NCBI RefSeq assembly: GCF_002224285.1
Contig: NZ_CP022436.1
Location: forward strand, 4,774,001-4,838,000
DNA from: Arthrobacter sp. YN
Lineage (GTDB): Bacteria > Actinomycetota > Actinomycetes > Actinomycetales > Micrococcaceae
Length of the DNA: 64,000 nt
Direction: 5' to 3'
Below are positions 12,538-62,969 of this stretch, piece by piece. The position numbers and the translations under genes are program-made. Every line of letters starts with the position of its first letter. The stretch's first letter is position 1. The notes beneath the pieces were generated by a model that was not told the DNA's origin, did not search any database, and worked only from the letters and a program-made list of their open reading frames with translations.

Positions 12538-12552
12538 CCTTACCGGCGCCGC

Positions 12553-13902: not shown

Positions 13903-14724
13903 ATGCCACCGGAAACGATCGTCATCACTGGCGGTGCTGGGCGCATCGCTACCGCGCTGCGCCCACGGTTGAGGAAACCCGGCCGGACCATCCGGCTTCT
14001 GGATGTGACCGCACCGGAGGGACCGCTGGACGTCAACGAGGAATTCCACCATATTCCGGTCACCGACCTCGACGGCACCACCAGGGCATGCTTGGGAGCC
14101 CGGGCCCTGGTGCACCTGGGCGGGGACCCCTCGGAACGGCCTTGGGCCGAGCTTGTGGACACGAACATCACCGGAACATACACGGCCTTTGAAAGTGCGC
14201 GCGCAGCCGGCGTCCCCAACGTCTTCTTCGCCAGCTCACTGCACTGCGTCGGCTACAACACGTTCGAATCCGCAAGCCAAAGCCCGGTTGCTCCGCCACG
14301 ACCTGACACCCTCTACGGCGTGACGAAAGCGGCAGGAGAAGCAATCGGCAGCCTCTACGCCGACCGCTTCAGCATGCGGGTGGTAGCAGCACGGATCATG
14401 GAATTCGGTGAACATCCGTCCGGGCAACGGCAACGGCTCACCTGGTTTTCCCACGACGACGCAGCACGCCTGGTAGAAGCAGCCATACAACTGGCAGAAC
14501 CGGGCTTCCACATCGTCTGGGGAAGCTCACGGAACAGCAAAGGGACCGTACCCTTGGGACCCGGAGAAGCAATCGGATTCTTCCCGCAGGACGACGCCGA
14601 AGACCACCTCCAGAGCATGGCTTCTTCTCCCAAGGATGACCCCAAGGACCCTAAAACCGAACTCATCGCCGGAACGTTCATTGATCCCCAACACCCCATC
14701 GACAACGACTGGACGGAAGGCTGA
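13903..14724 (+). CDS. udh: Uronate dehydrogenase-like NAD-dependent SDR
   Basis: A 273-residue extended-SDR protein. GGAGRIA (10-16) binds NAD. FASSLHCVGY (109-118) and Tyr138/Lys142 in YGVTK form the active site. RLTWFSHDDAARLVEA (178-193) and FHIVWGSSRNS match the distinctive C-terminal part of bacterial uronate dehydrogenases, which oxidise D-glucuronate and D-galacturonate to aldarolactones. AAGGAGG lies 5 bases before ATG 13903. It closes the region A plus-strand set (lyases, GH105, GH5), which strongly suggests that the released monosaccharide is a uronic acid. The later aldarate pathway (dehydratase, KDG-type steps) is not complete in this window. Confidence 0.82.
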   Translation: MPPETIVITGGAGRIATALRPRLRKPGRTIRLLDVTAPEGPLDVNEEFHHIPVTDLDGTTRACLGARALVHLGGDPSERPWAELVDTNITGTYTAFESARAAGVPNVFFASSLHCVGYNTFESASQSPVAPPRPDTLYGVTKAAGEAIGSLYADRFSMRVVAARIMEFGEHPSGQRQRLTWFSHDDAARLVEAAIQLAEPGFHIVWGSSRNSKGTVPLGPGEAIGFFPQDDAEDHLQSMASSPKDDPKDPKTELIAGTFIDPQHPIDNDWTEG

Positions 14725-48039: not shown

Positions 48040-49238
48040 AGAAGACGCGCGATGGCACCATGGACGTCGTCATTGTCGGTTTGGGCTTCGGGTTGGACTT
48101 CATCCCTGTTTACGCGAGCCACCCGGGAATCGACCGAGTGGGCATCTGCGATCCTGATGTGGAAAAGCTCGCGTCCGTTGCCCGCAGGTACGGAGTTGAG
48201 GATACTTTCACGTCCCTGAACGAAGTACTGGAAAGCGACCGCTTCGACGCGGTCCACCTCCTCACCCCCGTCACCTTGCACGCCAGCCAGGCTGTAGAGG
48301 TGCTCCGAAGCGGAAGGCACGTGGCTTCCGCTGTACCGATGGGCCTGACCTTTGAAGAGATCGGCCAGGTCATCCAGGCCGCCCGGTCCAGCGGCAAGAA
48401 CTACATGATGATGGAGACCGCTGTTTACCAACGCGAGTTCTTCTACGTTCAGGAATTGCTGCGTTCGGGGCAATTGGGAGATGTCACGTTTCTGAGGGGC
48501 GCTCATATACGCGACCGGACCACCATGCCGCAGTACTGGCGGGCGTTCCCGCCCATGAAGTACGCCACCCACGTCATCAGTCCGCTTCTTGCCTTGCAGA
48601 ATTCCCGTGCAGAAAGCGTCCGCGCTTTCGGTTCCGGCACGCTCAGGGACCATCAACTCGGTGACCACGGCAACCCTTTCCCTTTGGAGACGGCCGTCTT
48701 CACCTTGGAAGATTCCAACGTCAAAATGGAAGTCACCCAAGGGTGCTTCAACGTAGCGCGGACAGCCCAGGAAGGCTTCAGCGTCTATGGAGACACAATG
48801 AGTGTGGAGTGGCCGCCCGTCGAGGAAGAAGACGGACTGCACGTCTTCACCATGTATCCGGAGGCCGAGGAAGCCCGCGAACGGTTCAGGCGCGTGGAGT
48901 TCGACGTCGTCCACCCACCTGACCGGGTGGCTCACCTTCCGGAGGAGGTCAGGATGTTCAGTCGTCCTGCCGTATTCAGCCCGCATCCTTCACTGCCTGC
49001 CATCGATGTGCCGTCCCATCACGGGGGTTCGCACCCTCACCTGGTTCACGAGTTCATCACCAGCATCGCTGAAGGCCGGAAATCCCGAATCGACGAATTT
49101 ACTGCGGCAGACTGGTGCGCCGCAGGCGTGGCGGCTCACGATTCTGCATTGCACGAAGGAGAAAAGGTGGACATCCCCGATTTCCGGAGGTCCACCTTAG
49201 CGTGGGGCTGGAAAGACCTCGGCGGTTGCCGTCCCTGA
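48036..49238 (+). CDS. Gfo/Idh/MocA-family oxidoreductase
   Basis: 400 residues from GTG 48036 (overlap with the cupin stop); ATG 48060 is a possible later start. The cofactor loop VVIVGLGFGLDFIPVYASHP and the variant ASAVPMGLTFEEIGQVI (no EKP) place it with the 45459 gene; NYMMMETAVYQREFFYVQEL is the shared block, and GGSHPHLVHEFITSI near the C-terminus occurs in both. The pair probably arose by duplication and may form a hetero-oligomer or act in successive steps. Confidence 0.85.
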   Translation: MKKTRDGTMDVVIVGLGFGLDFIPVYASHPGIDRVGICDPDVEKLASVARRYGVEDTFTSLNEVLESDRFDAVHLLTPVTLHASQAVEVLRSGRHVASAVPMGLTFEEIGQVIQAARSSGKNYMMMETAVYQREFFYVQELLRSGQLGDVTFLRGAHIRDRTTMPQYWRAFPPMKYATHVISPLLALQNSRAESVRAFGSGTLRDHQLGDHGNPFPLETAVFTLEDSNVKMEVTQGCFNVARTAQEGFSVYGDTMSVEWPPVEEEDGLHVFTMYPEAEEARERFRRVEFDVVHPPDRVAHLPEEVRMFSRPAVFSPHPSLPAIDVPSHHGGSHPHLVHEFITSIAEGRKSRIDEFTAADWCAAGVAAHDSALHEGEKVDIPDFRRSTLAWGWKDLGGCRP

Positions 49239-49272
49239 GGCTTCATTGGCCCCAGCAGGTTCGGCAACCGCC
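49221..49272. terminator. Hairpin between convergent Gfo/Idh and pyruvyltransferase genes
   Basis: GGCGGTTGCCG (49221-49231) pairs perfectly with CGGCAACCGCC (49262-49272) with a 30-base loop. The left arm overlaps the last codons of the Gfo/Idh gene. The long loop makes it a weaker candidate than the other terminators. Confidence 0.5.
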
Positions 49273-49300
49273 TTGCTCTGCCTTTCGGCAGGAGCAAAAA

Positions 49301-50587
49301 CTAGGACTTCAGCCCGCTGCGTTGGCTGACGACAGCAATGGTCTGCTCAAACCGGCGGCGTGCCAGGTCCCTCGCAGCAACGGCCTTTAGCTTCGCCTTC
49401 TCCGGATCCTTTGCCATTTCCAGGACCACATCGGGGAAGCGCGCAACGTCCTTGTCGTCGTCGAAGTTGAACAGCCACTCATCGAGTCCGATGTCCTCCC
49501 ACATGCGGCCTTTGCTGCTCTGCTCAACCCAGCGATTCACTATTGCCGGCACACCATTGGCAATCGCCATGATGGGACTGTGCATCTCATTGCTGAAAAG
49601 CCCGGCCGACCGCTTGTAGACTCCTACTGCTTCCTCCAGCAACCACGTGCGGTCCAGCCAGACCACATTTTCTTTCACATCCTCGGGGAGATGGTCCAGC
49701 ACCCACGTCTTGCCTATGGGCATCTCTGTCTCATCCTCATTACAGATCAGGACTTTCATGCCCGTCTCACGCACGACGGCGGTAATCGCCTCACGCAACG
49801 GGATGTGGTCGTGTTCCTTCATCTCTTCGTTGCGCTGGTGAAGGCGGGAATCAAAGGGACGGTTCTTCGCTTTATGAAGCCAGCTGGGCGTGAAGCGCTG
49901 CTTTGGGAAACAGCACATGAAGTTTCCCTCCACCAGGTCATACTTTGCCATCAGGCGCTCGGCAGCCTCGTCGTCGGCAATATCCAGTGCAAATACCACG
50001 TCCGGCGACCATTCCATGACCGGGGCGCTGACGCCGTCCTGGAGCGCCCTTTCCAAGGAGACAGAATCCCTGAAGTACACGAACTCCGCCTTGCTGAGTG
50101 CTTCCTTTTCTGCATTGCCAAAGAGCCAGTGACCATAAGTGATGCCGTAGAAGCCGAAGGGGTTGCCGGTCCGTTCCTGGAAAGCCACCAGGTCCTTCCA
50201 GGCGAGTCCGAACGGGCCGGAATTGTGCAGCATGAAGTCGGCAGACGCCATTGCTGCATCCAGCTCGGGAGTGGAACCGACGCCTCGCTCATCCAAGGTT
50301 CCTTGGACGATGTTCAAGCGGGGGAATCGCTCCATCAGCATGTCGACTTCGAATTGAGGCAATACGGAATAGAAGGGCCAGAAAGTTACGTCGACCTCGG
50401 GCAGATATTGTTCCAATAAAGCAAGTGCCCCGGGAGTGTGCGCGACGTCGCCTATGTTTTCGATTTGCCACCCGGACCTCAGGATCAGGTGAGGAGCCCG
50501 GGCGGAAGCGCTGTGCGGCAACTGCGTTCCGTCCGCATCAAGAGCTGCTTCCAGCGTGTTTGGAAATGACGAACTGTGGGCCGGCAT
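49301..50587 (-). CDS. Polysaccharide pyruvyltransferase-family protein
   Basis: A 428-residue protein of the PF04230 type: LILRSGWQIENIGDVAHTPGALALLEQYLP near the N-terminus, FMLHNSGPFGLAWKD, GFYGITYG, SRDSVSLERALQ-like FRDSVSLERAL, and SAGLFSNEMHSPIMAIANGVPAIV in the C-terminal lobe. The family transfers pyruvyl ketals from PEP to sugar residues, or has drifted to other roles. ATG 50587 has GGAG 5 bases upstream. A LacI-type operator (50636-50655) lies 49 bp upstream, which places it in the region G regulon. Finding this family in a catabolic cluster is unusual; a degradative or modifying role is possible. Confidence 0.8.
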   Translation of the reverse strand: MPAHSSSFPNTLEAALDADGTQLPHSASARAPHLILRSGWQIENIGDVAHTPGALALLEQYLPEVDVTFWPFYSVLPQFEVDMLMERFPRLNIVQGTLDERGVGSTPELDAAMASADFMLHNSGPFGLAWKDLVAFQERTGNPFGFYGITYGHWLFGNAEKEALSKAEFVYFRDSVSLERALQDGVSAPVMEWSPDVVFALDIADDEAAERLMAKYDLVEGNFMCCFPKQRFTPSWLHKAKNRPFDSRLHQRNEEMKEHDHIPLREAITAVVRETGMKVLICNEDETEMPIGKTWVLDHLPEDVKENVVWLDRTWLLEEAVGVYKRSAGLFSNEMHSPIMAIANGVPAIVNRWVEQSSKGRMWEDIGLDEWLFNFDDDKDVARFPDVVLEMAKDPEKAKLKAVAARDLARRRFEQTIAVVSQRSGLKS

Positions 50588-50635
50588 GGTTCTCCAATAT
50601 TCAACGGCGAGGGGTGTGTACGTTCTAGGTTGGCA

Positions 50636-50655
50636 TTGATTTAACGCAAAATCAA
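50636..50655. promoter_or_regulatory. LacI-type operator, region G regulon, site 1
   Basis: TTGATTTAACGCAAAATCAA is a 20-bp imperfect palindrome (8 of 10 pairs match, central CG), identical to the site at 61704-61723 and close to 57407-57426. It lies between the divergent pyruvyltransferase-family gene (start 50587) and the GH5-like gene (start 50732), so it can control both. Confidence 0.8.
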
Positions 50656-50731
50656 GGGCTAGCATCAGTGGTGGGACCGCCAGTCCCCTACTTTCCCCGG
50701 AACTCTCCGGGCACCTACCCCGCGAAAGAAG

Positions 50732-51928
50732 ATGATGACCCGCTTCGGAGTAAATTACGTACCGAGCAAAAACTGGTGGTACTCATGGTTGGAGTGGAAC
50801 GACACAGAGATCGCCGAGGATCTGCAAGCCATTGCCGATCTTGGCTGTGACCACGTCCGAATCCACTGCCTGTGGACGCTGTTTCAGCCCGATCCCGCCA
50901 TGGTCAGCCCCACCATGCTTTCCCGGCTGGAACAGCTCCTGGACATCGCGGACCGCGTCGGTTTGGATGTGATCGTCACCGTACTCAACGGCTGGTTGAG
51001 CGGGTTCGATTTCCGGCCTGCCTGGATCCCGGAACAGGCAAGCATCTTTAGCGACCAGGCAGTAGTTGCTGCAGAAAAGCTGCTCTTCACTGCTATCGCT
51101 GAGAGGGTAGGCACTCACCCCCGCTTCCTTGGTTTTGACGTTGCCAACGAACCGTCAGTTCTCATCTCGGAGACCAGGAACATCACCAACCGGGCAGAAG
51201 CGGACGGGTGGGCCAAGGAGATGCTGTCCCATTGTGAAGACGTGGCTCCTGGAAAGTTCCACACAGTCGGCATGGACCATGTCCCGTGGCTGTCCGAGCA
51301 CCCTTTTAGCCGCGGCGTTCTGGCCGGGACGGGCTCTGCCACCCCGATCCATGCCTGGATCTTCTTCACCGGCGCCTTGGAGCGTTACGGGGAGTTCGGA
51401 ACCGGCACTCTTCACCTCACCGAATACATGCTTGAACTGGCCAAGGCGTACTCCCAGGAGCCCACCCGCCAGGTCTGGCTGCAGGAATTCGGCATCGCCA
51501 CGGAATGGGCCCAGGACCTTGAGCACGACGACTTCGCAGAAAAGGCAGCGCTCTCGGCACTTTCCGTTGATGGCCTGTGGGGCGTTACCTGGTGGTGCTC
51601 ACATGACATCGACCGCGGACTGGGAGCCTTCGTGGAACTCGAGTACGACCTCGGACTCTTCACCACAGACAACCAGCTCAAACCCACCGGTCAACGGTTG
51701 AAGGCCATTATGGAGGAAGTGAGGCAGGGCAAGCTTTCCGCCCGTGCCGAGCGCACCATTGCCGTGGTACTTCCTCAAGGGCGCACGCCCGGACTGGACT
51801 TCGCAGATACCTTCTTCGCGCTCATAGACGAAGGCAAGAAGCCGGCGATCGTCCTTGAAGAGAACGCCCTCGACCACGACTACCTCAAAACCCGGGGCAT
51901 CGAAACGCTGGTACGTCTCGGAGAATAG
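50732..51928 (+). CDS. GH5-like (clan GH-A) glycoside hydrolase, copy 2
   Basis: A 398-residue paralogue of the 12639-13832 enzyme. Acid/base Glu140 lies in GFDVANEP and the likely nucleophile Glu252 in WLQEFG. The core NGWLSGFDFRPAWIP and the PIHAWIFFTGALERYG strand are conserved. Cytoplasmic by lack of a signal. ATG 50732 or 50735; the upstream site is GAAAGAAG. It is monocistronic (terminator at 51937) and has LacI operator site 1 upstream. The divergence between the two GH5-like copies is clearly greater than between the two beta-helix genes beside them. Confidence 0.82.
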   Translation: MMTRFGVNYVPSKNWWYSWLEWNDTEIAEDLQAIADLGCDHVRIHCLWTLFQPDPAMVSPTMLSRLEQLLDIADRVGLDVIVTVLNGWLSGFDFRPAWIPEQASIFSDQAVVAAEKLLFTAIAERVGTHPRFLGFDVANEPSVLISETRNITNRAEADGWAKEMLSHCEDVAPGKFHTVGMDHVPWLSEHPFSRGVLAGTGSATPIHAWIFFTGALERYGEFGTGTLHLTEYMLELAKAYSQEPTRQVWLQEFGIATEWAQDLEHDDFAEKAALSALSVDGLWGVTWWCSHDIDRGLGAFVELEYDLGLFTTDNQLKPTGQRLKAIMEEVRQGKLSARAERTIAVVLPQGRTPGLDFADTFFALIDEGKKPAIVLEENALDHDYLKTRGIETLVRLGE

Positions 51929-51936
51929 TCACACGT

Positions 51937-51973
51937 CGAAAGGCCCTGCGGTGTACATCCGCAGGGCCTTTCG
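51937..51973. terminator. Bidirectional terminator between GH5-like and beta-helix genes
   Basis: CGAAAGGCCCTGCGG (51937-51951) and CCGCAGGGCCTTTCG (51959-51973) form a perfect 15-bp stem with a 7-base loop and AAA/TTT near the base. It serves the plus-strand GH5-like gene and the convergent beta-helix gene (ends 51990). Confidence 0.85.
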
Positions 51974-51989
51974 CCATCATGTGAAGCCT

Positions 51990-53423
51990 CTAGTAGCCCT
52001 TGTGGGGGTTGCGGTATTTGTAGGCGCCGCGGTCCAGGGTGAGTCCTGGTGGGCGGGTTTTGCCGGTGAAGTCGTCCTTGGGTGCCAGGTTTTTGGTACC
52101 GCTGGCGATGGCCGGTGACCCCTCTTGGAGTCTGAAGTCTGCTTCGTAAGGGTTCAACGCGGGGCTGACGAGCAACGGATCTGTGATGAGGTCATTCGGA
52201 CCCGTGACTGCGGGTGCGGTGCCGTTGTAGTAGATGTTGTAGTCATAGAGGACGTTGGTGTTCTTGTAAGTGGAGTTGGTGGATTTACCGGCCCGGACGT
52301 AGGAGATGTTGTTCAGGACGTTGCAGTCCTCGCTGACCCAGGCACCGATATTTCCGTAGTCCAGGGCGGGGCTGACGGAGTTGAGGTAGCCGGTGTTGTT
52401 GATGATGTCCACGCCGTTGGCTTTGTAGGCGTGGATCCCTGATCCGCCGTTGTTAAGCACGATGTTGTTCGCTACCAATGTCCGGCCTTTGTACCGGGTG
52501 CCGCCGGCTCCGGTGCCCAGGGTGGAGTCGACGATGATGCCGTTGCCGTCGGAGATCTTTCCGTACTGCCGCCAGGGGATGAAGGACTGGTTGTTATAGA
52601 CGAGGTTGTTCGTGAAGATGTGTTTGTACCCGGTGCTGGAGTCGAAGTTGAACGGGACCAGGGTGGAGATGCCGCTGTTGGCGAAGATGGAGTACCAGGC
52701 GTTGGAATGCACGATGTTCCCGTGCACGGTGAGGTAGTCCGCTTTTGTTGCTGCGATGCCGCCACCAGGCCAGTGATGAACAACGTTGTTGCGCACCGTG
52801 ATGTGGTGGGAGCCGGCTCCGCCGGCGTTCCCAGCGGCGGGTTGGATGGCGATGCCGTTCGCGTTGTAGGTGGGGGTGGCTTTGAGACGCAGTTCGTAGG
52901 CGTCCTCGTACTTCAGTCCGGCGCTGAGCCCGCTCAGGGTCAGGTTCTCGATGGTGATGTAGCTGGCGCTGGTGATCCTGATCCCGGTCCAGGAGTTCCG
53001 GGTCACCGTGATCACCGGGGCGTGGTGGGGGAACGCGGTGTAGGTGATGGGCTGCCCGGCCGTCCCCGAGCGGGTGATGATCAGTGTTCCCTGGTTACCC
53101 GGGGTGCCGTCATCGGTGTAGGTGCCGTTCATGATCAGGACCGTGTCGCCCGGCTCGGTGACGTTCGAGGCCGCCTGCAAAGTATTGAAAGCCTTCTCGG
53201 GGCTGCTGCCGTCCTGGCCCGGGCCCGTACCGGCGTCCGCACGGACGTACAGTTTCCGCCCGGACGAGGCCACCGCGGCCCCTGCACCGAGGCCACCCTG
53301 GCCAACACTGAAACCAACAGCACCCACCGCGGCGCCTATCCCCATCAACCGCAAGACATCCCGCCGGGCGGGAGCGCTGAAAGGGTTACCTGAATTGCCA
53401 CATTGCGCATTTGCGTGAGTCAT
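51990..53423 (-). CDS. Secreted right-handed parallel beta-helix protein (copy 2), putative polysaccharide lyase/epimerase
   Basis: 477 residues. Tat signal with Arg20-Arg21 in ARRDVLRLMGIGAAVGAVGF, then the entry block YVRADAGTGPGQDGSSPEKAFNTLQ. The Asn-rich beta-helix coils are almost identical to copy 1 at 11122-12537 (NGIAIQ, HHITVRNNVVHHWPGGGI, YKANGVDIINNTGYL). Differences cluster in the signal peptide and the last 60 residues. AGGAAG precedes ATG 53423. The gene is downstream of no other minus-strand gene in its unit (a terminator at 53524 separates it from the transporter), so it has its own promoter. Likely role: extracellular cleavage or epimerisation of an acidic polysaccharide. 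Confidence 0.82.
   Translation of the reverse strand: MTHANAQCGNSGNPFSAPARRDVLRLMGIGAAVGAVGFSVGQGGLGAGAAVASSGRKLYVRADAGTGPGQDGSSPEKAFNTLQAASNVTEPGDTVLIMNGTYTDDGTPGNQGTLIITRSGTAGQPITYTAFPHHAPVITVTRNSWTGIRITSASYITIENLTLSGLSAGLKYEDAYELRLKATPTYNANGIAIQPAAGNAGGAGSHHITVRNNVVHHWPGGGIAATKADYLTVHGNIVHSNAWYSIFANSGISTLVPFNFDSSTGYKHIFTNNLVYNNQSFIPWRQYGKISDGNGIIVDSTLGTGAGGTRYKGRTLVANNIVLNNGGSGIHAYKANGVDIINNTGYLNSVSPALDYGNIGAWVSEDCNVLNNISYVRAGKSTNSTYKNTNVLYDYNIYYNGTAPAVTGPNDLITDPLLVSPALNPYEADFRLQEGSPAIASGTKNLAPKDDFTGKTRPPGLTLDRGAYKYRNPHKGY
52047..53263. repeat. Long inverted repeat, copy 2 (partner about 11278-12480)
   Basis: This stretch of the copy 2 beta-helix gene is highly similar to the reverse complement of copy 1, with a 77-bp exact run at 52948-53024 matching 11509-11585. 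Recombination between the two would invert about 40 kb of the window. The end points given are approximate. Confidence 0.75.
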
Positions 53424-53523
53424 GTCTTCCTATCTCATTGAGGGAACACTGCTTCTAACTCTTCTCCACGGTCTTCGCCCGCATAGCGGATCCGGGGCCT
53501 GTTCCGAGGAACGGGGTCTAAAG

Positions 53524-53555
53524 AGGTGCCCCGTAGCTATGGCTGCGGGGCACCT
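53524..53555 (-). terminator. Terminator of the region G transporter operon
   Basis: AGGTGCCCCG (53524-53533) and CGGGGCACCT (53546-53555) form a perfect stem. It extends inward by AGC/GCT after one T-G pair to a 4-base loop. It lies 19 bp downstream of the binding-protein stop (53574). Confidence 0.75.
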
Positions 53556-53573
53556 TGGAATCGGGGTGGGCGC

Positions 53574-55199
53574 CTAAGCTTTCAGCTCCTCAATTCCCTT
53601 TTGAAACTCGTCGCGGATCTTGTCGCCGCCGTCGGCTTTCCACGTGGTGACGAAGTCCTTCCAACTGCTGACAGGCTTCCGGCCGAGGATGATATCGGCC
53701 CGGGCCTCTGCCGCCTTGGACGTGAGCTGTGAGGACTTGGCCGCTTCGGTTTCCGAGTAGAGACCTGCCAGTGGATCAGGCGTGATCATGCCGAGGGCTT
53801 GCTCCTGGTACTCGAACTGACGCTTGGCGTCTCCTTCATCCAAGGGCTGGAAAATCACCTGCGAGGCGTCGGTGACGTACTTGAACGGAACAAGCCTCTG
53901 GTTCTGGCCTGCACTGTTGACCACGGGGTTGGTTCCTTCGAGAGCGAATGTTTTACCTTCCACCCCGTAGTTCCGCAGAGTGTATTCGGCACTGCCGAAG
54001 GGAGCTGCCAACCAGTCCAGCAGCCGCAGGAGTTCCTTGACCCGGGCGTCGTCTGCCTTGGTGATCGCCGTGAAGTGCGGTGCGACGGCGGCACTCATGT
54101 GAGCAGGCTTGACCTTGCCGTCGTTGCTGAAGGGGAGCATACCTGTGAACTTGAAACCGGGGACGGCCTGGCCCCATTGGGTCCACTTCGACCAGCCGGT
54201 GAAGCCAATGGCGGCGATCGGAGCAGCTCCGTTGAGGAACCAGTCGTTGCGCTGCGTGTTGGAGGAACCCACCATGTTGGGGTGCATGACGCCCAGTTCA
54301 ACCAGTTCGCGTGTCTGGGCAAGTGACTGTTCGTACTCGGGAAGCTCGTACTCGGAGGTGAGCTTCCCGTCCTTTTCCATCCATGGGCCGGGAACGCCGT
54401 GGGTGCTTCGGATGAAGTCGAAGGCTCCCACGAAGTCGCCCAGGGCCCAGCGGCTTTCCCGATCGTTGGTCAGGCCGACAAGAACTTCCTTAAATTCGTC
54501 GAAGTTTTTCGGGGCCGTTGTCACTGAGTACTTGTCAAAGATGTCTTGGCGGACGATGACGGCGGCGCCGATGGCCGGGCGGGGCATGGGGACACCCCAA
54601 ATACGGTTGTTGACTACTGATTCGCCCCAAGAAACCGTGGGAAGCCCCGCAAGGTTGGGGTAGTCCAGCACGGCGTCACCGGAAAGGTGGTCGGTCAGGT
54701 CCACGAATTTGGATTGGAGGAGGGCAGGCAACTGCTGGACTGGCTGCCGTACTGCAACAAGGTCCGGCAAAGAGCCGCCGGCAATGGTGGTAGCAAACTT
54801 CTGCCCGTAGTCGGCGTAGGGGGTGTAGACGATGTCGAGCTTTCCGCCCAGACTCTCGTTGACAGCCTGCCATAGCGGGTTGGCATCCACCCCCGGCGCT
54901 ACAGGATCGAAGCTGTAGGTCAGTGCAGTAACGCTTCCGCCCGACAATGGAGCTTTCGCAACTGATGCCACCGGCTTGGCCGGGTACTTGAGGAAGCCAG
55001 GCATGCCGTCCTTGGCGCTGACCAAGTCAGGCTTCACGCCGGCGAACTCTTTGAAGGTAGGGAGCTTGACGGTGTTGCCGCCGGATGTGCTTCCGGAGGG
55101 GCCTGAGCTGCAGGCGCTGATTGAGCTACCGACGAAACCTACAGCAACGGCCAGGCTGCTGGCTTTGAGGAGATTTCGGCGTGAAAATTCCATGGACAT
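53574..55199 (-). CDS. Sugar ABC transporter substrate-binding lipoprotein, LplA-type (copy 2)
   Basis: A 541-residue extracellular binding protein. Arg7-Arg8 in FSRRNLLKAS is a twin-arginine motif, and the lipobox ISAC gives acylated Cys30 followed by a Gly/Ser linker. The body shares length and layout with 7282-8916 (GMPGFLKYPAKPVASVAK at the same place). ATG 55199 is preceded by AGGAACC; ATG 55193 is nearly as good. It is the last gene of the permease-permease-binding protein operon; 53 bp separate it from the YtcP-like permease. Confidence 0.9.
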   Translation of the reverse strand: MSMEFSRRNLLKASSLAVAVGFVGSSISACSSGPSGSTSGGNTVKLPTFKEFAGVKPDLVSAKDGMPGFLKYPAKPVASVAKAPLSGGSVTALTYSFDPVAPGVDANPLWQAVNESLGGKLDIVYTPYADYGQKFATTIAGGSLPDLVAVRQPVQQLPALLQSKFVDLTDHLSGDAVLDYPNLAGLPTVSWGESVVNNRIWGVPMPRPAIGAAVIVRQDIFDKYSVTTAPKNFDEFKEVLVGLTNDRESRWALGDFVGAFDFIRSTHGVPGPWMEKDGKLTSEYELPEYEQSLAQTRELVELGVMHPNMVGSSNTQRNDWFLNGAAPIAAIGFTGWSKWTQWGQAVPGFKFTGMLPFSNDGKVKPAHMSAAVAPHFTAITKADDARVKELLRLLDWLAAPFGSAEYTLRNYGVEGKTFALEGTNPVVNSAGQNQRLVPFKYVTDASQVIFQPLDEGDAKRQFEYQEQALGMITPDPLAGLYSETEAAKSSQLTSKAAEARADIILGRKPVSSWKDFVTTWKADGGDKIRDEFQKGIEELKA

Positions 55200-55252
55200 G
55201 ACGGGTTCCTAACGACGTTGATGTGAACCAGGTGATGGTGCAGACGGGGGGC

Positions 55253-56200
55253 TTAGCCCTTGACCGCTCCGACCATGAGGCCCTTTGCGAAGTGTTTCTG
55301 AATGAACGGGTAGAGCACGAGGATGGGGATCATGGATAGCACCAGGATTGCCATCTGGATGGAAAGCTGCGGTGGAAGAGCGTCCGCTCCTGCACTGAGG
55401 TCTTCAGTTCCCATGGGTGTTTGGTTGACCACGAAGGTGCGAAGGACCAATTGCATGGGCCAAAGATCCGGGGAGTTCAAGTAGAGCAGTGCGGAGAAGA
55501 AGGCATTCCAGTAGCTGACTGCGTAAAAGAGGCCGACGACGGCAATGGCGGCTTTGGACATCGGCAGGACGATTGAGACAAGGATTCTGAAGTCACCTGC
55601 ACCGTCGATCCTGGCGCTTTCAATGAGCTCTGCCGGGATGTCCAGGAAGAAGGCCCTCATGATGATCACGTTGAAGGCGTTGATCAGAACCGGCAGCACC
55701 AGGGCGGCGAGGTTATCGATGAGCCCGAGCTGCTGAACGATCAGGTACATGGGGATGATGCCGGGGCTGAACAGCAGTGTGAACAACGTAGCGAGCAGCA
55801 GGGGCTTATGCGCGAGCGACCCCGGACGGGACAATCCATAAGCCAACGCGATGGTGGTCAGCAGGCTCAGGAGGGTGCCGATCACGGTGACGCCGATGCT
55901 GACGAACATGGCGCGGGTAACAACGCCACCGGCCAGGACCGCCTGGTATGCCTCAAACGACGGCGAGGAAGTCCAGAGGACGAACCCGCCACTGGCCGTA
56001 ATTTCGTCCTGTCCTGCCAAGCTCGTCATGAATACGGCGACGAACGGCACCAGAACGGCGGAGCAGGCGATCACAAGAACGAGTGCGCGGAAGACCAGGA
56101 ACAGCGGGCTGGGTTTCCCCATCCAGGCGGGTCGGGAGTTTGCCTTCGCCTTGGTGGCTTTCCTGGCTCGATACTCGGTTTTGCTTTCAAGAAGGCTCAT
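55253..56200 (-). CDS. Oligosaccharide ABC transporter permease, YtcP-type (copy 2)
   Basis: A 315-residue permease with six membrane segments. The EAA-type loop reads IESARIDGAGDFRILVSIVLPMSKAAIAVVG, and the C-terminus FIQKHFAKGLMVGAVKG is the YtcP-type ending. Its ATG overlaps the upstream permease stop. Closely related to 6271-7191 throughout. It uses a shared ATPase encoded outside the window. Confidence 0.9.
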   Translation of the reverse strand: MSLLESKTEYRARKATKAKANSRPAWMGKPSPLFLVFRALVLVIACSAVLVPFVAVFMTSLAGQDEITASGGFVLWTSSPSFEAYQAVLAGGVVTRAMFVSIGVTVIGTLLSLLTTIALAYGLSRPGSLAHKPLLLATLFTLLFSPGIIPMYLIVQQLGLIDNLAALVLPVLINAFNVIIMRAFFLDIPAELIESARIDGAGDFRILVSIVLPMSKAAIAVVGLFYAVSYWNAFFSALLYLNSPDLWPMQLVLRTFVVNQTPMGTEDLSAGADALPPQLSIQMAILVLSMIPILVLYPFIQKHFAKGLMVGAVKG

Positions 56201-57180
56201 TTGGAGTACACTCCCCTTTCGCCGAAGAGGTGGGCTATTTTGTTCGCTCCCAGTACCAGAGCCACGCTGACGATGCCCTTCACGAGTCCGACGGCGGCGG
56301 CAACGCCCCAGTTTCCGCCGATGATGCCGTTGTTGTACACGTAGGTATCGAGCACTTCACTGACCTGTGTTCCCACGGCCACTTGTTGAAGGATGATCTG
56401 CTCGAACCCCACGGTCAGGGAGTCTCCGAGCCGGAGAATCAGCAGAAGGACAATGACGGGCCGGATAGCCGGCAGGGTGATGTGCCACATCCTGCGCCAA
56501 GCTGGTGCCCTGTCAATGGCCGCGGCTTCGTAAAGGGAAGCGTCCACCTTGGAAATCGCGGCAAGGAAGATGATGGTTGACCAACCGGTGTCTTTCCAGA
56601 TGATCTGGGATGTCAGGAGCGCGTGAAAGAGCTCCGGTACACCGATGATCTGGAAGGTGGACATGTCCGCCTGCCGCAGCCACGTGTTCACCAGTCCGGC
56701 GTTGCCCAGCATTTGCTGGAACAGTGCGACCACAATCACCCATGACAGGAAGTGGGGCAGGTACAGAATCGACTGGATGGTCTGCTTCCACTTCTCGCTC
56801 ATGAAGCTGTTGAGCAACAGCGCCAGCGCGATGGGAAGCGGGAAGACAAAGACAACCTGGATCAGGGTCAAGATCAGGGTGTTACTCAAGGCTGACAGGA
56901 AGGCTGGATCGCCGTTGAAGATGACCCGGAAGTTGTCGAAGCCAACAAATGGGCTGGACGTAATTCCCAGGAACGGCTGGAAGTCCTGAAACGCGATGAC
57001 GTTCATCAGGAGTGGAATGTACTGGAAAACCAGCAGAGCCAGGATTCCCGGCACCGCCAGGAGCAGAAGAACCTTGTCCTTCTTGAACCGCGACCCCAGG
57101 CTCGCTTTGGGTGCCTTGGGAGCTTGGTCCTTCTTTTCCGGGGCCTCGGAGTCCGCAGCTTTACGCGCAATCACCGTCAT
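56197..57180 (-). CDS. Oligosaccharide ABC transporter permease, LplB-type (copy 2)
   Basis: A 327-residue membrane protein. A charged N-terminus of about 35 residues (Lys-rich, KKDQAPKAPKAS) precedes six helices. The EAA loop is YEAAAIDRAPAWRRMWHITLPAIRPV, where the usual Asp-Gly-Ala is DRA. First gene of the region G transporter operon. ATG 57180 is 227 bp downstream of LacI operator site 2 (57407-57426). Paralogue of 5261-6274. Confidence 0.9.
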   Translation of the reverse strand: MTVIARKAADSEAPEKKDQAPKAPKASLGSRFKKDKVLLLLAVPGILALLVFQYIPLLMNVIAFQDFQPFLGITSSPFVGFDNFRVIFNGDPAFLSALSNTLILTLIQVVFVFPLPIALALLLNSFMSEKWKQTIQSILYLPHFLSWVIVVALFQQMLGNAGLVNTWLRQADMSTFQIIGVPELFHALLTSQIIWKDTGWSTIIFLAAISKVDASLYEAAAIDRAPAWRRMWHITLPAIRPVIVLLLILRLGDSLTVGFEQIILQQVAVGTQVSEVLDTYVYNNGIIGGNWGVAAAVGLVKGIVSVALVLGANKIAHLFGERGVYSK

Positions 57181-57406
57181 GACTGCACTCCTGACCTTGC
57201 GGCGAGGAATGCCGAGGAAGCGACGCCTGTGATCTTCTGGTCGATGCCAGGTATAGAGGCGACACCCCCGATGTTAAATGTTCGCCACGTTGAGGCAAGA
57301 AGCACTCGACGCCGGCGTGGAGGAGACGCAAGGTTGGCATCCATCAAAAACTCCGTTGTTTGCTAGGGCTTAAGGTGCCGAAACATCCGGCAGAGCAACT
57401 CTCGCA

Positions 57407-57426
57407 TTGATTAATCGCAAAATCAA
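57407..57426. promoter_or_regulatory. LacI-type operator, region G regulon, site 2
   Basis: TTGATTAATCGCAAAATCAA differs from sites 1 and 3 at three central positions and keeps the TTGATT...CG..AAATCAA frame. It lies in the 313-bp gap (57181-57493) between the LacI gene's stop and the transporter operon; no gene is seen in this gap. The transporter promoter is expected close to the site. Confidence 0.8.
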
Positions 57427-57493
57427 TAGGAAATCCAAAACTGGGGGGAATTATTGTGATCCCACTCACCGGCGGGAGGCGTAACAGGGACGG

Positions 57494-58497
57494 CTAGATC
57501 GCTGCCGTGGAACCGCGATCGATGATCTTTGGAGCTGGTCGCCGAACGATGTGGCTCTTGACCTTTTCGCCCGCAATCATGCGCTGGAGAACCTCATAAC
57601 CCTTCACTCCAGCCTCATACAGCGGCATCTTGATGGTGGTCAGCGCCGGCCGGTAGTAATCCGCTTGCGGGATGTCGTGGTACGCGACAACGGAAAGATC
57701 ATCCGGCAGGCGCAGGCCCAAATCTGCCACCGCTGCGATCAGCCCGCGGGCGGCCACGATGTTGTCGATGATGATGGCAGTGGGAGGCTCTGAAGACTGC
57801 ATGAGCTGCGAAACCGTGGAGCGTATGGCCGTGGGGTCGTAGCCACGGACAACTGCGTCGGCAGGGGGCGGCGTAAGATCCCGGGCCGAGAACGCGTCAC
57901 GGAACCCGGCGCCTCGGGTATCTTCAGTGAAAGGCGTGGGGGGTCCTCCCAGCATCGCTATGCGCCGATGCCCAAGTTTCAGGAGATGAGTGGTCCCAAC
58001 GAAGATTCCGCGGTAGTCGTCCACCCACACGCATACGTTGACGCCGTCGGTGGGACCGTTCAGAACGACGCACGGAACGTTTCGTTGCTGAAAGATACTG
58101 ATGTTCTCTTCCGCTGCCGTAAGGAAACGGACCAGGAAGCCGTCCACCATGCCGGTACCCACCAGCCGGCTCAAGAGGTTGCTGCCGGGGGAAACCCTGT
58201 CCGAATCAGAGAGGAGGATGGCCCCCGATTGGCGTCAGCAGCATCCTGCACACCGCGCAACGCCTCGTCGAACACCGGGTTCGAAAGATTGGGCGTAATG
58301 GTTGCCACCAGCCCGGTCCGGGACGTTTTCAGGGCCTTGGCTGCGTGATTGGTGACATACCCCAATTCACGGATCGCTTCCTCTACCCGTTTGCGCGTGC
58401 TGGGGCTCATCCGGACGGATTTACTACCGGAAACCGCTGCGGAGACAACAGCAGCCGAGACCCCTGCACGCTCCGCCACCGTCTGCAAAGTCACCAT
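57494..58497 (-). pseudogene. LacI-family regulator split by a one-base frameshift
   Basis: The N-terminal frame (58497 to about 58227) has the helix-turn-helix VTLQTVAERAGVSAAVVSAAVSGS, hinge YVTNHAAKALKTSRTG and VFDEALRGVQDAADANRG. Then it runs off into non-homologous sequence and stops. The next frame continues exactly there: AILLSDSDRVSPGSNLLSRL and the rest of the sensor domain to 57494. Loss of one base in the run CCCCC (58222-58226; G5 on the coding strand) explains the break. If real, the sensor domain is not attached to the DNA-binding domain. If an error, it is an intact 334-residue repressor. It is downstream of the DUF2264 gene and is the likely regulator of the three TTGATTTAACG operators. 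Confidence 0.85.
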
Positions 58498-58565
58498 GTA
58501 GTAAATCTACCGCTTCTCCTTGTCAGCGGAGACGCAGGCCTGAAGCCGTTCATGTCCCCGGCTTC

Positions 58566-60527
58566 TCAGAGCCTGGCATGTTCCGGCAGCCTGGTAAGGC
58601 TCGCATAACCGTCAGGCCATTCGATCATGACGTGATCGCCCTCGGTGCGCACCAAGGGCGGAGCCGTTGGAGCGGCACCGCTAAGCTCGCTGGCGGCAAT
58701 GAGCCATCGGCCCGCCCCTGCGGCATCAACAGCGACCCAGGGCGTACCGGTTTCGCCTGGCAACGGAGTGGAATCAGGGCTGCGTTGAACGCCGGTTTCC
58801 GGTAAACCAGCGAGCCCCACTATCCTGCTTCGGATGGCGCCACTGGCAGCGGTTGCTTGCTCTGCGTCGATCTCCACTTGACCCGTCACGGGCCAGCCGG
58901 TCACCACCACACTGACAGGGACAAAGGTGTCGGCGCCCGGCTCAATCAGGATCAGGCGCACCTCCCACTCGCCGCGGATGATGGAGCCGACTGTCAGCGC
59001 GGGACCGTAGGTGTTGACGCCGACGAATCCGTTGCCGTAGTCCTTCTGGCCCTCAGCTACGTCTATCCAGCGGGTCTTCCACCGAGAGAACGCAAAAGCA
59101 GTTTCATTTTGTGTTCCGCCGCTGATGAGCTCGAACCCTGAGCGGTGACTCGAGTGACCGTTGGGGTCAACTACGACCACTGACGAGTCAGGCAGGGGAT
59201 CACCCACCTTCGAGATTAAGGGGAACGTCGCCGTCGAATAGGCCAAATGTGCGTAGACATCCACATCTGAAAGTTCGTTTCCGGGGAGCGCGTGATCCGA
59301 ACCGTGGTTGTAGACGCGCACTATGCCATCTTGTGGTGTTGAACTGAGCAGCCAACCCGGCGCCTGGATCCAGTCCACTCCCCCTTGCCTCTCGATCGGC
59401 AAGGGTTCCTCCGTAGCGGCCCAGACAGGGTGATCTTCCGGAAAAATCAGACCCAGCAGGCCCTTCGCTGCCCAGTACGGAGAGCCGGTTCCCGAGTAGT
59501 CCTGGGCCAGCTCCGGCCACTCGTCAAACCACCCCAGCGTCAGTAGCCCGCGTTCGTCAGGAGCTCCTTGATCAACAAAGTGCTTCACAGTGCCCATAGC
59601 GGCGCGCCGCAATTGTCCGAGGGACATGAGGTCTGTACCAACCATGGCTCCGGTCCAGAACGGTGCCGCTGCTGCGAAGCGGTAGATAAGGCTCCGCCCT
59701 TGTGCCAAGGGCGCGCCGTCGCCGCCAACCAGACGGGCAGCATCGCCCAGGAACTGGTCGAACCGATCCTTGTATTCGTGGAACCGGTCGCGGTTGGGGT
59801 CGTCGGCGTCGAGCATGTCCAGCCACAGGAATGGATACAGCTGCAGTGCCCAGGAGTTGTAGTAGTCGTAAGCGCGCGTGATGCCATCGGCATACCATCC
59901 GCCTTCCCTGACGAATGACTCATGCGCCTGCAAATCCTCGCGGATTTCCTCGGCAGAGTAAGGCCCGCCAACCGTGGCGAGGAACTGTTCGACGACGAGC
60001 CGGAACCACACCCAGTTGGTGTTTGGCCCAACAGTACCTATCACGCAGGCAAGGTAGTCCACTACGTTGCGCTGATCCGTCTCTTCGAGGCGGTCCCACA
60101 ACCACTTCCTCGTCAGATGGAGGCCAACCACCAGCGCCGCGGCCTCCACCTTGGCTTGCGGTTGTTCGTTCGGCAGTGGCCATCGTTGAGGGTTGTTCGG
60201 ATCCACTCCCGCTGCCAGGCCTTGGGAGTACCAAGGGATGAGGCCTAAAGGATCGTTGCCTTTTTCTCCCACAAGCCGGAACGCTGCCAGCATGAAGCTC
60301 CTGGCAAAACCCTCGAGCCCGTCGATGGGACTGATCCCGCGCCCATCCCGGGCCGGGATCAGTATGTGGGAGTGCGTGGCATTGGCATAAGGTCGCACTG
60401 CCATCAGCAGTTCATCGGCGAGTACCGCTAGGTGTTGCCGGTTCCACCCCGTGTAAGGGGAAAGAGCGCGGTCCTCTCCCAGGGCTGCCAGTTTGAGGCG
60501 AAGAGTGTCCGGTTCATTGGTGGTCAT
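58566..60527 (-). CDS. DUF2264-domain protein (putative glycoside hydrolase)
   Basis: 653 residues. The N-terminal two-thirds is an alpha-helical barrel domain (DUF2264, PF10022): SHILIPARDGRGISPIDGLEGFARSFMLAAF, then NTNWVWFRLVVEQFL and DGITRAYDYYNSWALQLYPFLW. A beta-rich C-terminal third (PDGYASLTRL at the end) follows. Family members occur in polysaccharide-utilisation loci; some are reported as glucuronidase-type hydrolases, which would fit a uronate polymer, but I cannot verify this here. No signal peptide. The start overlaps the dehydrogenase stop (ATGA). Members of this family often sit beside heparinase-like and GH105 genes. Confidence 0.8.
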   Translation of the reverse strand: MTTNEPDTLRLKLAALGEDRALSPYTGWNRQHLAVLADELLMAVRPYANATHSHILIPARDGRGISPIDGLEGFARSFMLAAFRLVGEKGNDPLGLIPWYSQGLAAGVDPNNPQRWPLPNEQPQAKVEAAALVVGLHLTRKWLWDRLEETDQRNVVDYLACVIGTVGPNTNWVWFRLVVEQFLATVGGPYSAEEIREDLQAHESFVREGGWYADGITRAYDYYNSWALQLYPFLWLDMLDADDPNRDRFHEYKDRFDQFLGDAARLVGGDGAPLAQGRSLIYRFAAAAPFWTGAMVGTDLMSLGQLRRAAMGTVKHFVDQGAPDERGLLTLGWFDEWPELAQDYSGTGSPYWAAKGLLGLIFPEDHPVWAATEEPLPIERQGGVDWIQAPGWLLSSTPQDGIVRVYNHGSDHALPGNELSDVDVYAHLAYSTATFPLISKVGDPLPDSSVVVVDPNGHSSHRSGFELISGGTQNETAFAFSRWKTRWIDVAEGQKDYGNGFVGVNTYGPALTVGSIIRGEWEVRLILIEPGADTFVPVSVVVTGWPVTGQVEIDAEQATAASGAIRSRIVGLAGLPETGVQRSPDSTPLPGETGTPWVAVDAAGAGRWLIAASELSGAAPTAPPLVRTEGDHVMIEWPDGYASLTRLPEHARL

Positions 60528-61654
60528 GCTTGGTACTCCAAATCAGAAACAGTGATGGGACTTGCCAGGGCCAGCCCAGAAACAAAGCGCTCCATCTCCT
60601 GAAGGGCTTGGTCCGTCATCCGAAACGTCTCCGTTCCCAGTGACCCGGCAATGTGCGGGGTGATGGAAACGTTCTGCAACCCCCACATCACGCTGGAGGA
60701 AGGGAGTGGCTCAGGATCGGTGACATCAAGAACGGCGTTGAGTCGACCACTGGCACATTCAGCCTCAAGAGCCGCCGTATCAACGAGGCTGCCTCGGGCG
60801 GTGTTGATGAGGGTGGCGTGATCCGGGAGCATTGCCAGCTCTTTTGCCCCGATCATGTGGCGGGTCTCTTCCAGGGCCGGAGCATGGATCGAGAGAATGG
60901 AGACTTTTGGAAGCATCTCTTGCAGAGGGCACAATTGTCCGCCAGCCAGTTCAACTGCCTCGCGGGACGCGTAGGGGTCAGCAACCCAGCAAGTGGAGCG
61001 GTGCAGACGCGACACCTGCTCGACTACCCGCCGGCCTATCCTCGAGAAACCAATGATGCCAATGCTCTGCTGATAATTGCTCACCGTACCGAAGGGATGC
61101 CGCGGGTGGTTCACACCGAGGGGTGGCCTGCTGGCAACCGCCTCGCGGGAGTAGAACTGTGCCTTTTTTCCCGCGAGGACTATGGACGCGAAAGTAAATT
61201 CTGCAACGGGAATGGCATTTGCGTCGGCGGCGTTGGTCAACTGGATGCCCCTGGCCCAAAACGAGTCTCCGACGAGGTGTTTGACCGTGCCGGCACAGTG
61301 GAACACGGCCTTCAGCCGGGGCATGCGGTCGAGAATGTCGTCCGTGAGAGACGGAGTACCCCATGACGTCAGGAGCAGCTCTGCCTTCGCCAACCGCTCG
61401 TGGTGAACCGGGTTGTGCAGGTCTTCAACGAGTTCCGGCTGGGACAGGTCAGCACACCTCCGCACGCGGTCAAGGTGGGTCCCGTCAAACTGCTGGGCGA
61501 ATGCCTCGCGGCTCATGGCAATAACGACGACGGGCCCGCGCAGCTCATTCATGCGTCGGCCCGGGTATTGAGTGGCGGGCGGGACGGACCCGTCCGGACC
61601 CACCGCGGACGCAAGTGCCGTGCGGGATGGCAATAGGACATACGGGGGCTCCAT
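60524..61654 (-). CDS. D-isomer 2-hydroxyacid dehydrogenase-family protein
   Basis: 376 residues. The NAD fold is SIGIIGFSRIGRRVVEQVS. Catalytic triad positions are the Arg in INTARGSLVD, the Glu in DVTDPEPLPSS and the His in SITPHIAGSLG. An N-terminal extension of about 35 residues precedes MNELRGPVVVIAMS; a start at 61552 is possible, and neither start has a clear ribosome-binding site. It reduces a 2-keto acid or oxidises a 2-hydroxy acid with NAD(P). First gene of the operon with DUF2264 and LacI; operator site 3 lies 49 bp upstream of ATG 61654, the same distance as site 1 from the pyruvyltransferase gene. Confidence 0.87.
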   Translation of the reverse strand: MEPPYVLLPSRTALASAVGPDGSVPPATQYPGRRMNELRGPVVVIAMSREAFAQQFDGTHLDRVRRCADLSQPELVEDLHNPVHHERLAKAELLLTSWGTPSLTDDILDRMPRLKAVFHCAGTVKHLVGDSFWARGIQLTNAADANAIPVAEFTFASIVLAGKKAQFYSREAVASRPPLGVNHPRHPFGTVSNYQQSIGIIGFSRIGRRVVEQVSRLHRSTCWVADPYASREAVELAGGQLCPLQEMLPKVSILSIHAPALEETRHMIGAKELAMLPDHATLINTARGSLVDTAALEAECASGRLNAVLDVTDPEPLPSSSVMWGLQNVSITPHIAGSLGTETFRMTDQALQEMERFVSGLALASPITVSDLEYQA

Positions 61655-61703
61655 CGTCGTAGTAGTTCGGCCTGCCCCTCAGGGGCTGTTCTTTAGATTT
61701 CCA

Positions 61704-61723
61704 TTGATTTAACGCAAAATCAA
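61704..61723. promoter_or_regulatory. LacI-type operator, region G regulon, site 3
   Basis: TTGATTTAACGCAAAATCAA, identical to site 1 over all 20 bases; flanking A and T extend the palindrome to 22. It lies 49 bp upstream of the 2-hydroxyacid dehydrogenase start (minus strand) and 77 bp upstream of the unrelated TetR gene on the plus strand. Confidence 0.8.
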
Positions 61724-61763
61724 TAGCCGGAAGCAGTTCGGCTCGGGGCTGCTCTTGAAAACT

Positions 61764-61800
61764 GTGACAGACCGACCAGTCGGTCTGCTATTGTTTTCTC
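61764..61800 (+). promoter_or_regulatory. TetR promoter with operator between -35 and -10; probably leaderless
   Basis: CAGACCGAC-CA-GTCGGTCTG (61768-61787) is a perfect 9-bp inverted repeat, the usual TetR-family operator form. A possible -35 GTGACA (61764-61769) and -10 TATTGT (61789-61794) flank it. The predicted start of transcription falls at or next to ATG 61801, and no ribosome-binding site is seen, so a leaderless mRNA is likely. Confidence 0.65.
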
Positions 61801-62310
61801 ATGTCCATGAGGGAACAGATTCTCGCCACAGCCCGTCAGCTCGCCATCAGCACCGGATCCATACCGTCCATGGATGCCGTGGCAGCCGCGGCGAAGGTGT
61901 CCAAAGGTGGCTTTACGCATCACTTCAGAACCAGGGCCGCATTGCTCGAAGGCTTGGCAGCCCAGGCCATTGAGTCCTTGGATGAGGCCCTCAACGCGGC
62001 CGTCACCAGGGGGAACGTGGTTGAGACGTGGCTGCGCATCTCGATGTCACAAGATGACGCGGATCTCTACAGGGCGCTACTCGTGTCCTTCACGGACCTG
62101 GGAGAGAACGCAGACGGGCTGTTGAGCCTTTCAGCGGAGGCATCAAAGCGCTGGGAGCAACTCCTGGCAGCCGAGCTCGGAGACCCTGTGGCAGCGTCGA
62201 TCGTTCGACTCCTTGGAGATGGCATGGTGATGAACTCCCTGACGCGGGAAGCACTTCCCCCCGTTGAGAGCATCATGGCGTGGCTGGAGCCACGAAGGAA
62301 CGCCGAATGA
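61801..62310 (+). CDS. TetR-family transcriptional regulator
   Basis: 169 residues. Helix-turn-helix at about 20-47 (MDAVAAAAKVSKGGFTHHFRTRAALLEGL), then a helical ligand domain; shorter than most TetR proteins. ATG 61801 or 61807. The palindrome directly upstream indicates autorepression. The stop overlaps the start of the membrane protein gene (ATGA), so the regulator very likely controls that gene as its partner. Confidence 0.9.
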   Translation: MSMREQILATARQLAISTGSIPSMDAVAAAAKVSKGGFTHHFRTRAALLEGLAAQAIESLDEALNAAVTRGNVVETWLRISMSQDDADLYRALLVSFTDLGENADGLLSLSAEASKRWEQLLAAELGDPVAASIVRLLGDGMVMNSLTREALPPVESIMAWLEPRRNAE

Positions 62311-62969
62311 CCGCCGGCCTGCTGTGGGCGATCCTTGGCCTCGGCCTGGCGGACAGCCTCAATCCGGCGACAATCGTGACCATAACCCTCATCCTGCTCA
62401 CGGTCCGCAAGCACCCGGTGACCTCGGCATTGTCGTTTGTCGTGGGCGCCTTGAGCACCGTGTTCATTCTTGGTGCAGTGATCTTCCTCGGCGCCGGAGC
62501 AGCAGCGGACACCGTCAGTGACGGGCTTGTCTGGCTCCGGAGAATCGTCTTCCTGGTGGCTGCCGTAACACTGTTCATCACCGGCTACCGGCGCCTCAAG
62601 GATCGCCCTCGCAAGGGCATCGGCTTGCCATCCTGGTTCGGGATAGGCACAGCATTTCCGTTCGGTGTACTGGTCACCGGCGCCGATCTTCCCAACGCAT
62701 TCCCCTACTTCATTGCCATTGAACGGATGGTGGATGCAGATACATCCACGGGAACGGGCCTGCTTGTCCTCGCCGGATACGCGATCATCTATTGCGTGCC
62801 ATGCCTGATCCTGCTTGCCCTCGGCATCGCTCACGGCGACAAGGTCCGCGAAAGACTTCAAAAGGTCTACGACCGATTCGCCACGGGCACCACCCAACGA
62901 TCGGTTGCTGCAGCGGTGCTCTATCTTCTCCTGGGGGTCGGCGTCCTCGCGATCGCCCTCTGGCCTTAA
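62307..62969 (+). CDS. GAP/LysE-like small transporter membrane protein
   Basis: 220 residues with about six hydrophobic segments. LLWAILGLGLADSLNPATIVTITLIL at the N-terminus resembles the first helix of GAP-family (Sap/SfLAP-like) and CcdA/LysE-superfamily proteins with their conserved N-P. GTAFPFGVLVTGADLPNAFPYF is another conserved block. ATG 62307 overlaps the TetR stop. Members export small molecules or take part in lipid transport; function here is unknown, and the TetR partner suggests efflux. Confidence 0.8.
   Translation: MTAGLLWAILGLGLADSLNPATIVTITLILLTVRKHPVTSALSFVVGALSTVFILGAVIFLGAGAAADTVSDGLVWLRRIVFLVAAVTLFITGYRRLKDRPRKGIGLPSWFGIGTAFPFGVLVTGADLPNAFPYFIAIERMVDADTSTGTGLLVLAGYAIIYCVPCLILLALGIAHGDKVRERLQKVYDRFATGTTQRSVAAAVLYLLLGVGVLAIALWP

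Follow-up and report, generated by a model that had tools for sequence, protein, structure and literature searches.

In the available text of PMC4052901, regulators of the LacI family are described as binding palindromes of even length with CG at their centre, and local regulators usually control their own gene. The local sugar-catabolic regulons presented there have their sites in promoter gaps and combine transporter and catabolic genes. We have studied a set of sites of this type in Arthrobacter sp. YN. The window is the whole stretch of 64,000 nucleotides that was analysed (contig NZ_CP022436.1, positions 4,774,001–4,838,000); a 20-bp sequence is found three times in it, and a fourth copy lies elsewhere in the genome. 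The even CG palindrome, the sites in promoter gaps, the putative autoregulation and the presence of transporter and catabolic genes are common to both. In contrast with the regulons of that source, the targets here include a protein of the PS_pyruv_trans family (PPT in what follows) and a distant GH8 enzyme. Judging from sequence comparison, the 20-bp sites are very probably the operators of a single autoregulated LacI-family repressor (57494–58497), which would repress four units. In the titles and abstract openings of the literature searched, regulon databases being left out, no description of this gene set was found.

The position of all sites and genes is given in Table 1. Sites 1 and 3 are identical over their 20 positions, as the first-pass annotation had claimed. 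Site 2, taken there for a three-base variant, differs from them in 2 positions only. The central CG which had been described is present in all of them; however the palindromes are imperfect, with 8/10 symmetric pairs in sites 1 and 3 and 7/10 in site 2. A search of the whole genome (a single contig of 5.06 Mb), which had been proposed as a check, gave no stray matches: with up to 3 mismatches there are exactly four sites, on one strand, all upstream of sugar-catabolic genes, and the reversed control gives 0. A symmetric pattern in which the half-site hexamers and CG are fixed finds the same four sites at 0 mismatches and none at 1; at 2 mismatches there are ten more places in the genome, and 3 places for the reversed control. 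On a circular contig, site 4 would be 0.71 Mb away from site 3, counted through the junction of the record ends; in the other direction it is 4.34 Mb from site 1. The sites are shared by several operons, as had been suggested, but they are four instead of three, including the distant GH8 and GH36-like genes. Their orientation is the same relative to four minus-strand genes, PPT, LplB, the D-2-hydroxyacid dehydrogenase (2HADH) and GH8. With operon limits taken from gene spacing, 4/4 sites stand upstream of a coherent sugar-catabolic set, which includes the operon of the regulator.

The sites had also been placed in promoter gaps. This is the case for all three sites of the window if PPT starts at 50587, where a Shine-Dalgarno-like TTGGAGAACCATG is present and which agrees with the N-termini of related proteins. 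The longest open reading frame of PPT starts at 50665, and site 1 would then fall within it. Sites 1 and 3 are both 49 bp from a start codon (50587 and 61654), as already calculated in the first-pass annotation, but the equality may be a coincidence because no clear ribosome site is found at the 2HADH start 61654.

Out of 206 genomes examined in the genus, only that of strain YN itself has PPT (at 1e-20) or the GH36-like gene (at 1e-60); both are found in 0 of the 205 others, so that conservation of the operator can be tested only in more distant relatives. We scanned the genome_contigs collection (84,980 species) with a PPT alignment; 89 relatives were confirmed and the 80 best retained. Both parts of LacI are present in 31 of the 40 actinomycetal PPT loci, and 29 of these 31 also have the importer genes. 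They belong to Kribbella, Jiangella, Nonomuraea, Microlunatus, Occultella, Ruania and others. In these loci the pattern TTGAT-N4-CG-N4-ATCAA was scored within 250 bp upstream of the start of the tblastn match of either PPT or the N-terminal part of LacI, with uncurated starts. It is found in 8 loci with up to 1 mismatch, 15 with up to 2 and 24 with up to 3. Of 19 permuted half-sites, none is found with up to 1 or up to 2 mismatches, and with up to 3 they are found in 1.5 loci on average (8 at most). When all 1,024 half-sites are ranked at up to 1 mismatch, TTGAC (9) and TTGAT (8) come on top. Thus the operator is conserved together with the regulator in relatives, in 24/31 loci or 15/31 at the stricter threshold of 2 mismatches. 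The proposed conservation check is borne out in so far as the same architecture recurs upstream of PPT or LacI in distant loci; it fails in the 7/31 without a match at 3 mismatches.

The half-site also varies with the protein. In 30 of the 31 loci (L070, with an odd helix, was left out) we compared the recognition helix of LacI with the sites found within 300 bp upstream of PPT, LacI, LplA and LplB. Helices of class A (xAVVSA..[SG]G) have TTGATT in 8/9 loci and no site in 1; those of class B (VVSAVL[HN]GS) have TTGATG in 5/8 loci and none in 3. In class C (NGT.HTR) TTGACG is the sole best half-site in 8/13 loci and is tied best in the other 5/13. In the sequences compared, the half-site changes together with the recognition helix, and the class of the window goes with TTGATT: the LacI of the window, which reads AGVSAAVVSAAVSGSKS, has a class A helix, and the sites there have TTGATT. 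This correspondence in sequence points to the LacI gene in the operon of site 3 as the most likely regulator. The genome has 36 LacI-like N-terminal matches including that of the window; 30 of them were fetched and the helix could be read in 26. The helix AVVSAAVSG is found in none of the other 25.

Several observations weigh against this interpretation. The LacI gene is split across two frames, with both parts present and the junction in the region 58150–58260, so that a continuous frame is absent in 57494–58497; in relatives the paired N and C parts share one frame in 34/34 cases. Since the frame is broken, present-day repression is uncertain, and the regulon may be derepressed today in the sequenced strain, unless there is an assembly error. 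In the relatives the contrast fades at up to 4 mismatches (25/31 loci for TTGAT, a mean of 9.8 and a largest value of 28 for the permuted half-sites). With up to 2 mismatches the half-sites CGGCG (21), CGCCG (18) and CGGCC (16) exceed TTGAT when all 1,024 are compared, as is expected from GC-rich DNA. The 31 loci are not independent either: they correspond to 14 genus-level groups, counted from titles. The helix classes were defined after the sites had been seen; the class B matches of L077 and L084 are weak (3 mismatches) and lack the central CG, which is also absent in the class A match of L123. The promoters are no clearer. By eye, TTGCGT-N16 followed by TAGAAC, TAAAGA or TAAATC is found after sites 1, 3 and 4 on the coding strand, where the operator would cover the -35 box. 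However no such motif is found at site 2, and a promoter scan of 49000–62500 gave no sigma-70-like match at the sites, with 3 hits for a shuffle mean of 2.9. The overlap of operator and promoter is therefore weak.

Among the other explanations, the one that survives best is that the sites are operators of another regulator, either another LacI-like gene or a factor outside the LacI family, and that the broken LacI is a relic. The intact operators beside a broken frame would agree with it, as would the number of LacI-like genes in the genome. It is nevertheless improbable, since helix and half-site vary together in relatives and the broken gene has the matching class. Its helix was not met again among the other 25 that could be read (26 of the 30 fetched, out of 36 matches); the nearest one, TAVVSYVVNG, belongs to L129. 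Even less credit can be given to the four sites being copies of a promoter fragment, spread by duplication or a mobile element and devoid of regulation. Three of the four 20-mers are indeed identical, and in 4/4 cases the site is followed on the minus strand by a short common flank, TG, but the flanks differ soon beyond the site and the same architecture, with other letters, precedes the homologous genes of other genera. Chance repeats, already dismissed in the first-pass annotation, are practically excluded by 100 shuffled windows (mean 0.00 matches to the 20-mer), an expectation of about 1.7e-6 exact copies per 5.06 Mb (first-order Markov estimate) and the empty reversed control.

If the sites are operators of the LacI protein of the window, a dimer would bind the palindrome beside the promoters of four units: PPT, perhaps with the divergent GH5; LplB-YtcP-LplA, possibly with the beta-helix gene; 2HADH-DUF2264-LacI; and the distant GH8-GH36-like genes. 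The sites and their number, the gene families and their distribution, the operator type of the relatives and its covariation with the helix are observed; binding, repression, effector, substrate and operon limits are what we infer. An imported oligosaccharide or a breakdown product would release LacI. Outside the cell an acidic polysaccharide with beta-1,4 linkages would be cut by GH8, oligosaccharides would enter through the ABC importer, and inside PPT, the GH5_18-like protein, DUF2264 and 2HADH would handle units bearing pyruvate, mannose or uronate. The operons would then form one pathway, with a likely role in the uptake and breakdown of an acidic polysaccharide which contains mannose and uronate and is perhaps pyruvylated.

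Table 1. Operator sites and associated genes (window positions unless another record is named).
Feature	Coordinates	Strand	Remarks
Operator site 1	50636..50655	+	TTGATTTAACGCAAAATCAA; between PPT (-) and GH5 (+)
Operator site 2	57407..57426	+	TTGATTAATCGCAAAATCAA; between LacI stop and LplB
Operator site 3	61704..61723	+	TTGATTTAACGCAAAATCAA; between 2HADH (-) and TetR (+)
Operator site 4	C1:479671-479690		outside window; identical to TTGATTTAACGCAAAATCAA of sites 1 and 3
PPT, PS_pyruv_trans family, predicted GT-B-like fold	49301..50587	-	PF04230, E 3e-14
GH5_18-like (exo-beta-mannosidase-like) protein	50732..51928	+	PF00150; divergent from PPT
Right-handed beta-helix protein	51990..53423	-	PF13229; twin-arginine-like N-terminus (by eye)
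Solute-binding protein, "LplA"	53574..55199	-	PF13416
ABC permease, "YtcP"	55253..56200	-	PF00528
ABC permease, "LplB"	56197..57180	-	PF00528; first gene after site 2
LacI C-terminal sensor part	57494..58174	-	PF13377, E 1.4e-30; separate frame
LacI N-terminal DNA-binding part	58171..58497	-	helix AGVSAAVVSAAVSG
DUF2264 protein	58566..60527	-	PF10022, E 1e-104
2HADH	60524..61654	-	PF02826, PF00389; first gene after site 3
GH8 enzyme, glucanase/chitosanase-type	L005:13128-15329	-	after site 4; fibronectin domains
GH36-like gene	L005:10964-13090	-	follows GH8

The genes next to the window sites are those named in the first-pass annotation: PPT and GH5 at site 1, the transporter at site 2 and 2HADH, DUF2264 and LacI at site 3. 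These last three follow in this order on the minus strand, and a TetR gene lies on the other side of site 3, on the plus strand. For the transporter genes we use the names of that annotation (LplB, YtcP, LplA); Pfam supports the transporter families only. The beta-helix gene, 150 bp after the importer, is probably the last one of its operon. Among PDB entries GH5 resembles ScGH5_18 (7lr7, E 1e-80 over residues 3–394) and an exo-beta-1,4-mannosidase (6gvb, E 3e-58), a similarity sufficient to consider it a putative GH5_18 exo-beta-mannosidase. Site 4 precedes GH8 by 342 bp, and has a DNA-alkylation-repair gene on the plus strand. The nearest relatives of GH8 are the glucanase 5xd0 (E 4e-43), CelA and chitosanases; its N-terminus appears signal-like by eye, and the enzyme is probably secreted. 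Close to site 3 there is another, near-perfect palindrome, CAGACCGACCAGTCGGTCTG (61768–61787, 9/10 pairs), directly before the TetR gene, which is perhaps the operator of the TetR protein itself.

The DUF2264 protein resembles the PDB entries 8oi4, a 'beta-galactosidase' (E 8e-25), and 9o4u, a 'beta-D-glucuronic acid dehydratase' (E 8e-21), and also 9nwf. It would belong to GH154, as its solved relatives presumably do. According to the available text of PMC12269599, this family has been reinterpreted as uronate dehydratases which prime glucuronate (GlcA) for GH88. The DUF2264 protein is related in sequence to the glucuronate dehydratases 9o4u and 9nwf, either of which may be BcGDH, the GH154-type enzyme of that work. 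The BcGDH system, as far as that text describes it, differs from the operon of 2HADH, DUF2264 and LacI, in which there is no GH88; the window has a GH88 gene in its other cluster (4119–5264).

This second, paralogous cluster (298–14724) has two heparinase-like proteins, an RraA-like protein, GH88, an ABC importer, a beta-helix protein, GH5, an NAD-epimerase and, by eye, an AraC-like regulator. The scan of the window gave no operator copy in it. Its beta-helix gene (11122–12537) and that of the LacI cluster (51990–53423) have 89% protein and 87% DNA identity over 1.3 kb, in opposite orientation and 40 kb apart. The other paralogous pairs of both clusters are far less alike (31–60%). The beta-helix pair is a recent duplication or gene conversion.

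PPT reaches 54 bits with PF04230, above the Pfam cut-off of 25.3, and its structure model (mean pLDDT, the predicted local distance difference test, 84.6) gives GT-B-type structural matches. We also considered a ketal pyruvyltransferase of the CsaB type; the equivalog model TIGR03609 gives only 24.3 bits, with a cut-off of 213.1. In an alignment of 10 sequences Arg173, His336 and Lys359 do not vary, and two positions ahead of the His 10/10 have Glu or Asp. Assigned by order and spacing, the three residues match R148, H308 and K328 of CsaB as given in the available text of PMC10435577. However CsaB has R306, again by spacing, where the PPT family has Glu or Asp, and CsaB acts in cell-wall synthesis whereas PPT has a catabolic gene neighbourhood. 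Its reaction may possibly have changed. As a tentative idea, rather doubtful at present, this branch could serve breakdown instead of synthesis: GT-B-fold enzymes, co-regulated with an oligosaccharide importer and with beta-mannosidase-like and uronate-dehydratase-like enzymes, would take off or transfer pyruvate ketals, or some other acidic group, on oligosaccharides after import, and xanthan-like polymers could then be attacked without a lyase. We know of no enzyme dedicated to the removal of pyruvate ketals. None is named in the available text of a review (PMC6801904).

The distribution in the genus is very restricted. Besides the YN genome, a single one of the 149 others has the operator pattern with up to 3 mismatches, there with 3 mismatches and no central CG; the reversed control has matches in 5 of 150. 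Of 150 genomes only its own has a relative of the LacI sensor at 1e-30 (at most 19 candidates were scored per genome). DUF2264 relatives are common (66/206 genomes). The absence of PPT and the GH36-like gene from the other 205 genomes suggests acquisition; the sporadic occurrence is the same for the cluster of the window and for the distal operon, as joint acquisition would give. In the whole order PPT (at 1e-10) is present in 13 of 396 genomes including its own; the other 12 are all in one other family.

Relatives of PPT are found in records of Bacteroidota, Verrucomicrobiota, Planctomycetota and Actinomycetota. Among the best 80 of 89, the closest (57–59% identity) come from Spirosoma fluviale and from metagenome-assembled genomes (MAGs) of Bacteroidales, Sphingomonadales and Verrucomicrobiota. 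Heparinase-like genes are found nearby in 7/80 loci and alginate-lyase-family genes in 6/80. A 9-kb stretch of Spirosoma fluviale contains a PPT (57% identical), a gene for a beta-helix protein and, another 5 kb on, a GH36-like gene. Site 4 is thereby connected with the genes of the window by evidence other than the operator; GH10 and GH28 genes are also found there. In a plasmid of Spirosoma sp. KNUC1025 (L046:11893-13173) the relative is annotated as 'polysaccharide pyruvyl transferase family protein' and lies among SusC/SusD-type genes. A Spirochaetes MAG has heparinase-like, RraA-like and GH88 genes as neighbours, and an Oscillospiraceae MAG a GH28 gene.

A comparable region is the xanthan region in a plasmid of Paenarthrobacter ilicis 6C, as presented in the available text of PMC12772297. 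It shares LacI regulators, ABC sugar importers with a solute-binding protein, a hydroxyacid dehydrogenase and a glucanase, and its target contains mannose and glucuronate. However that text gives PL8, GH38, GH3 and GH9 for it and no pyruvyl transferase, whereas here we find GH8, GH5, DUF2264 and PPT. The side chain of xanthan is Man-GlcA-Man (Man, mannose), often with pyruvate on the outer mannose, according to the same text, and xanthan would be one candidate substrate. A xanthan utilisation region of that kind was considered and rejected: none of the genes examined next to the sites is a PL8, GH9 or GH38, and for GH9 and GH38 the search covered these genes only. The sole PL8-family (Lyase_8) match in the genome (L158, C1:3796140-3796937) is above the Pfam cut-off, in an open frame of 873 aa far from the sites.

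As a regulon, the system is ordinary in its kind. What is surprising is that a protein of the PS_pyruv_trans family occurs in catabolic loci, and this in several phyla. The value of the regulon lies in the gene linkage which is made likely and in the catabolic setting of the PPT family: the operators join GH8 and the GH36-like gene, far away on the contig, to the importer and PPT, for which gene order alone would be insufficient, and they place in a catabolic regulon a protein which is biosynthetic by its family name. The LacI relatives, in which helix and half-site vary together, offer a test case for the specificity of LacI operators.

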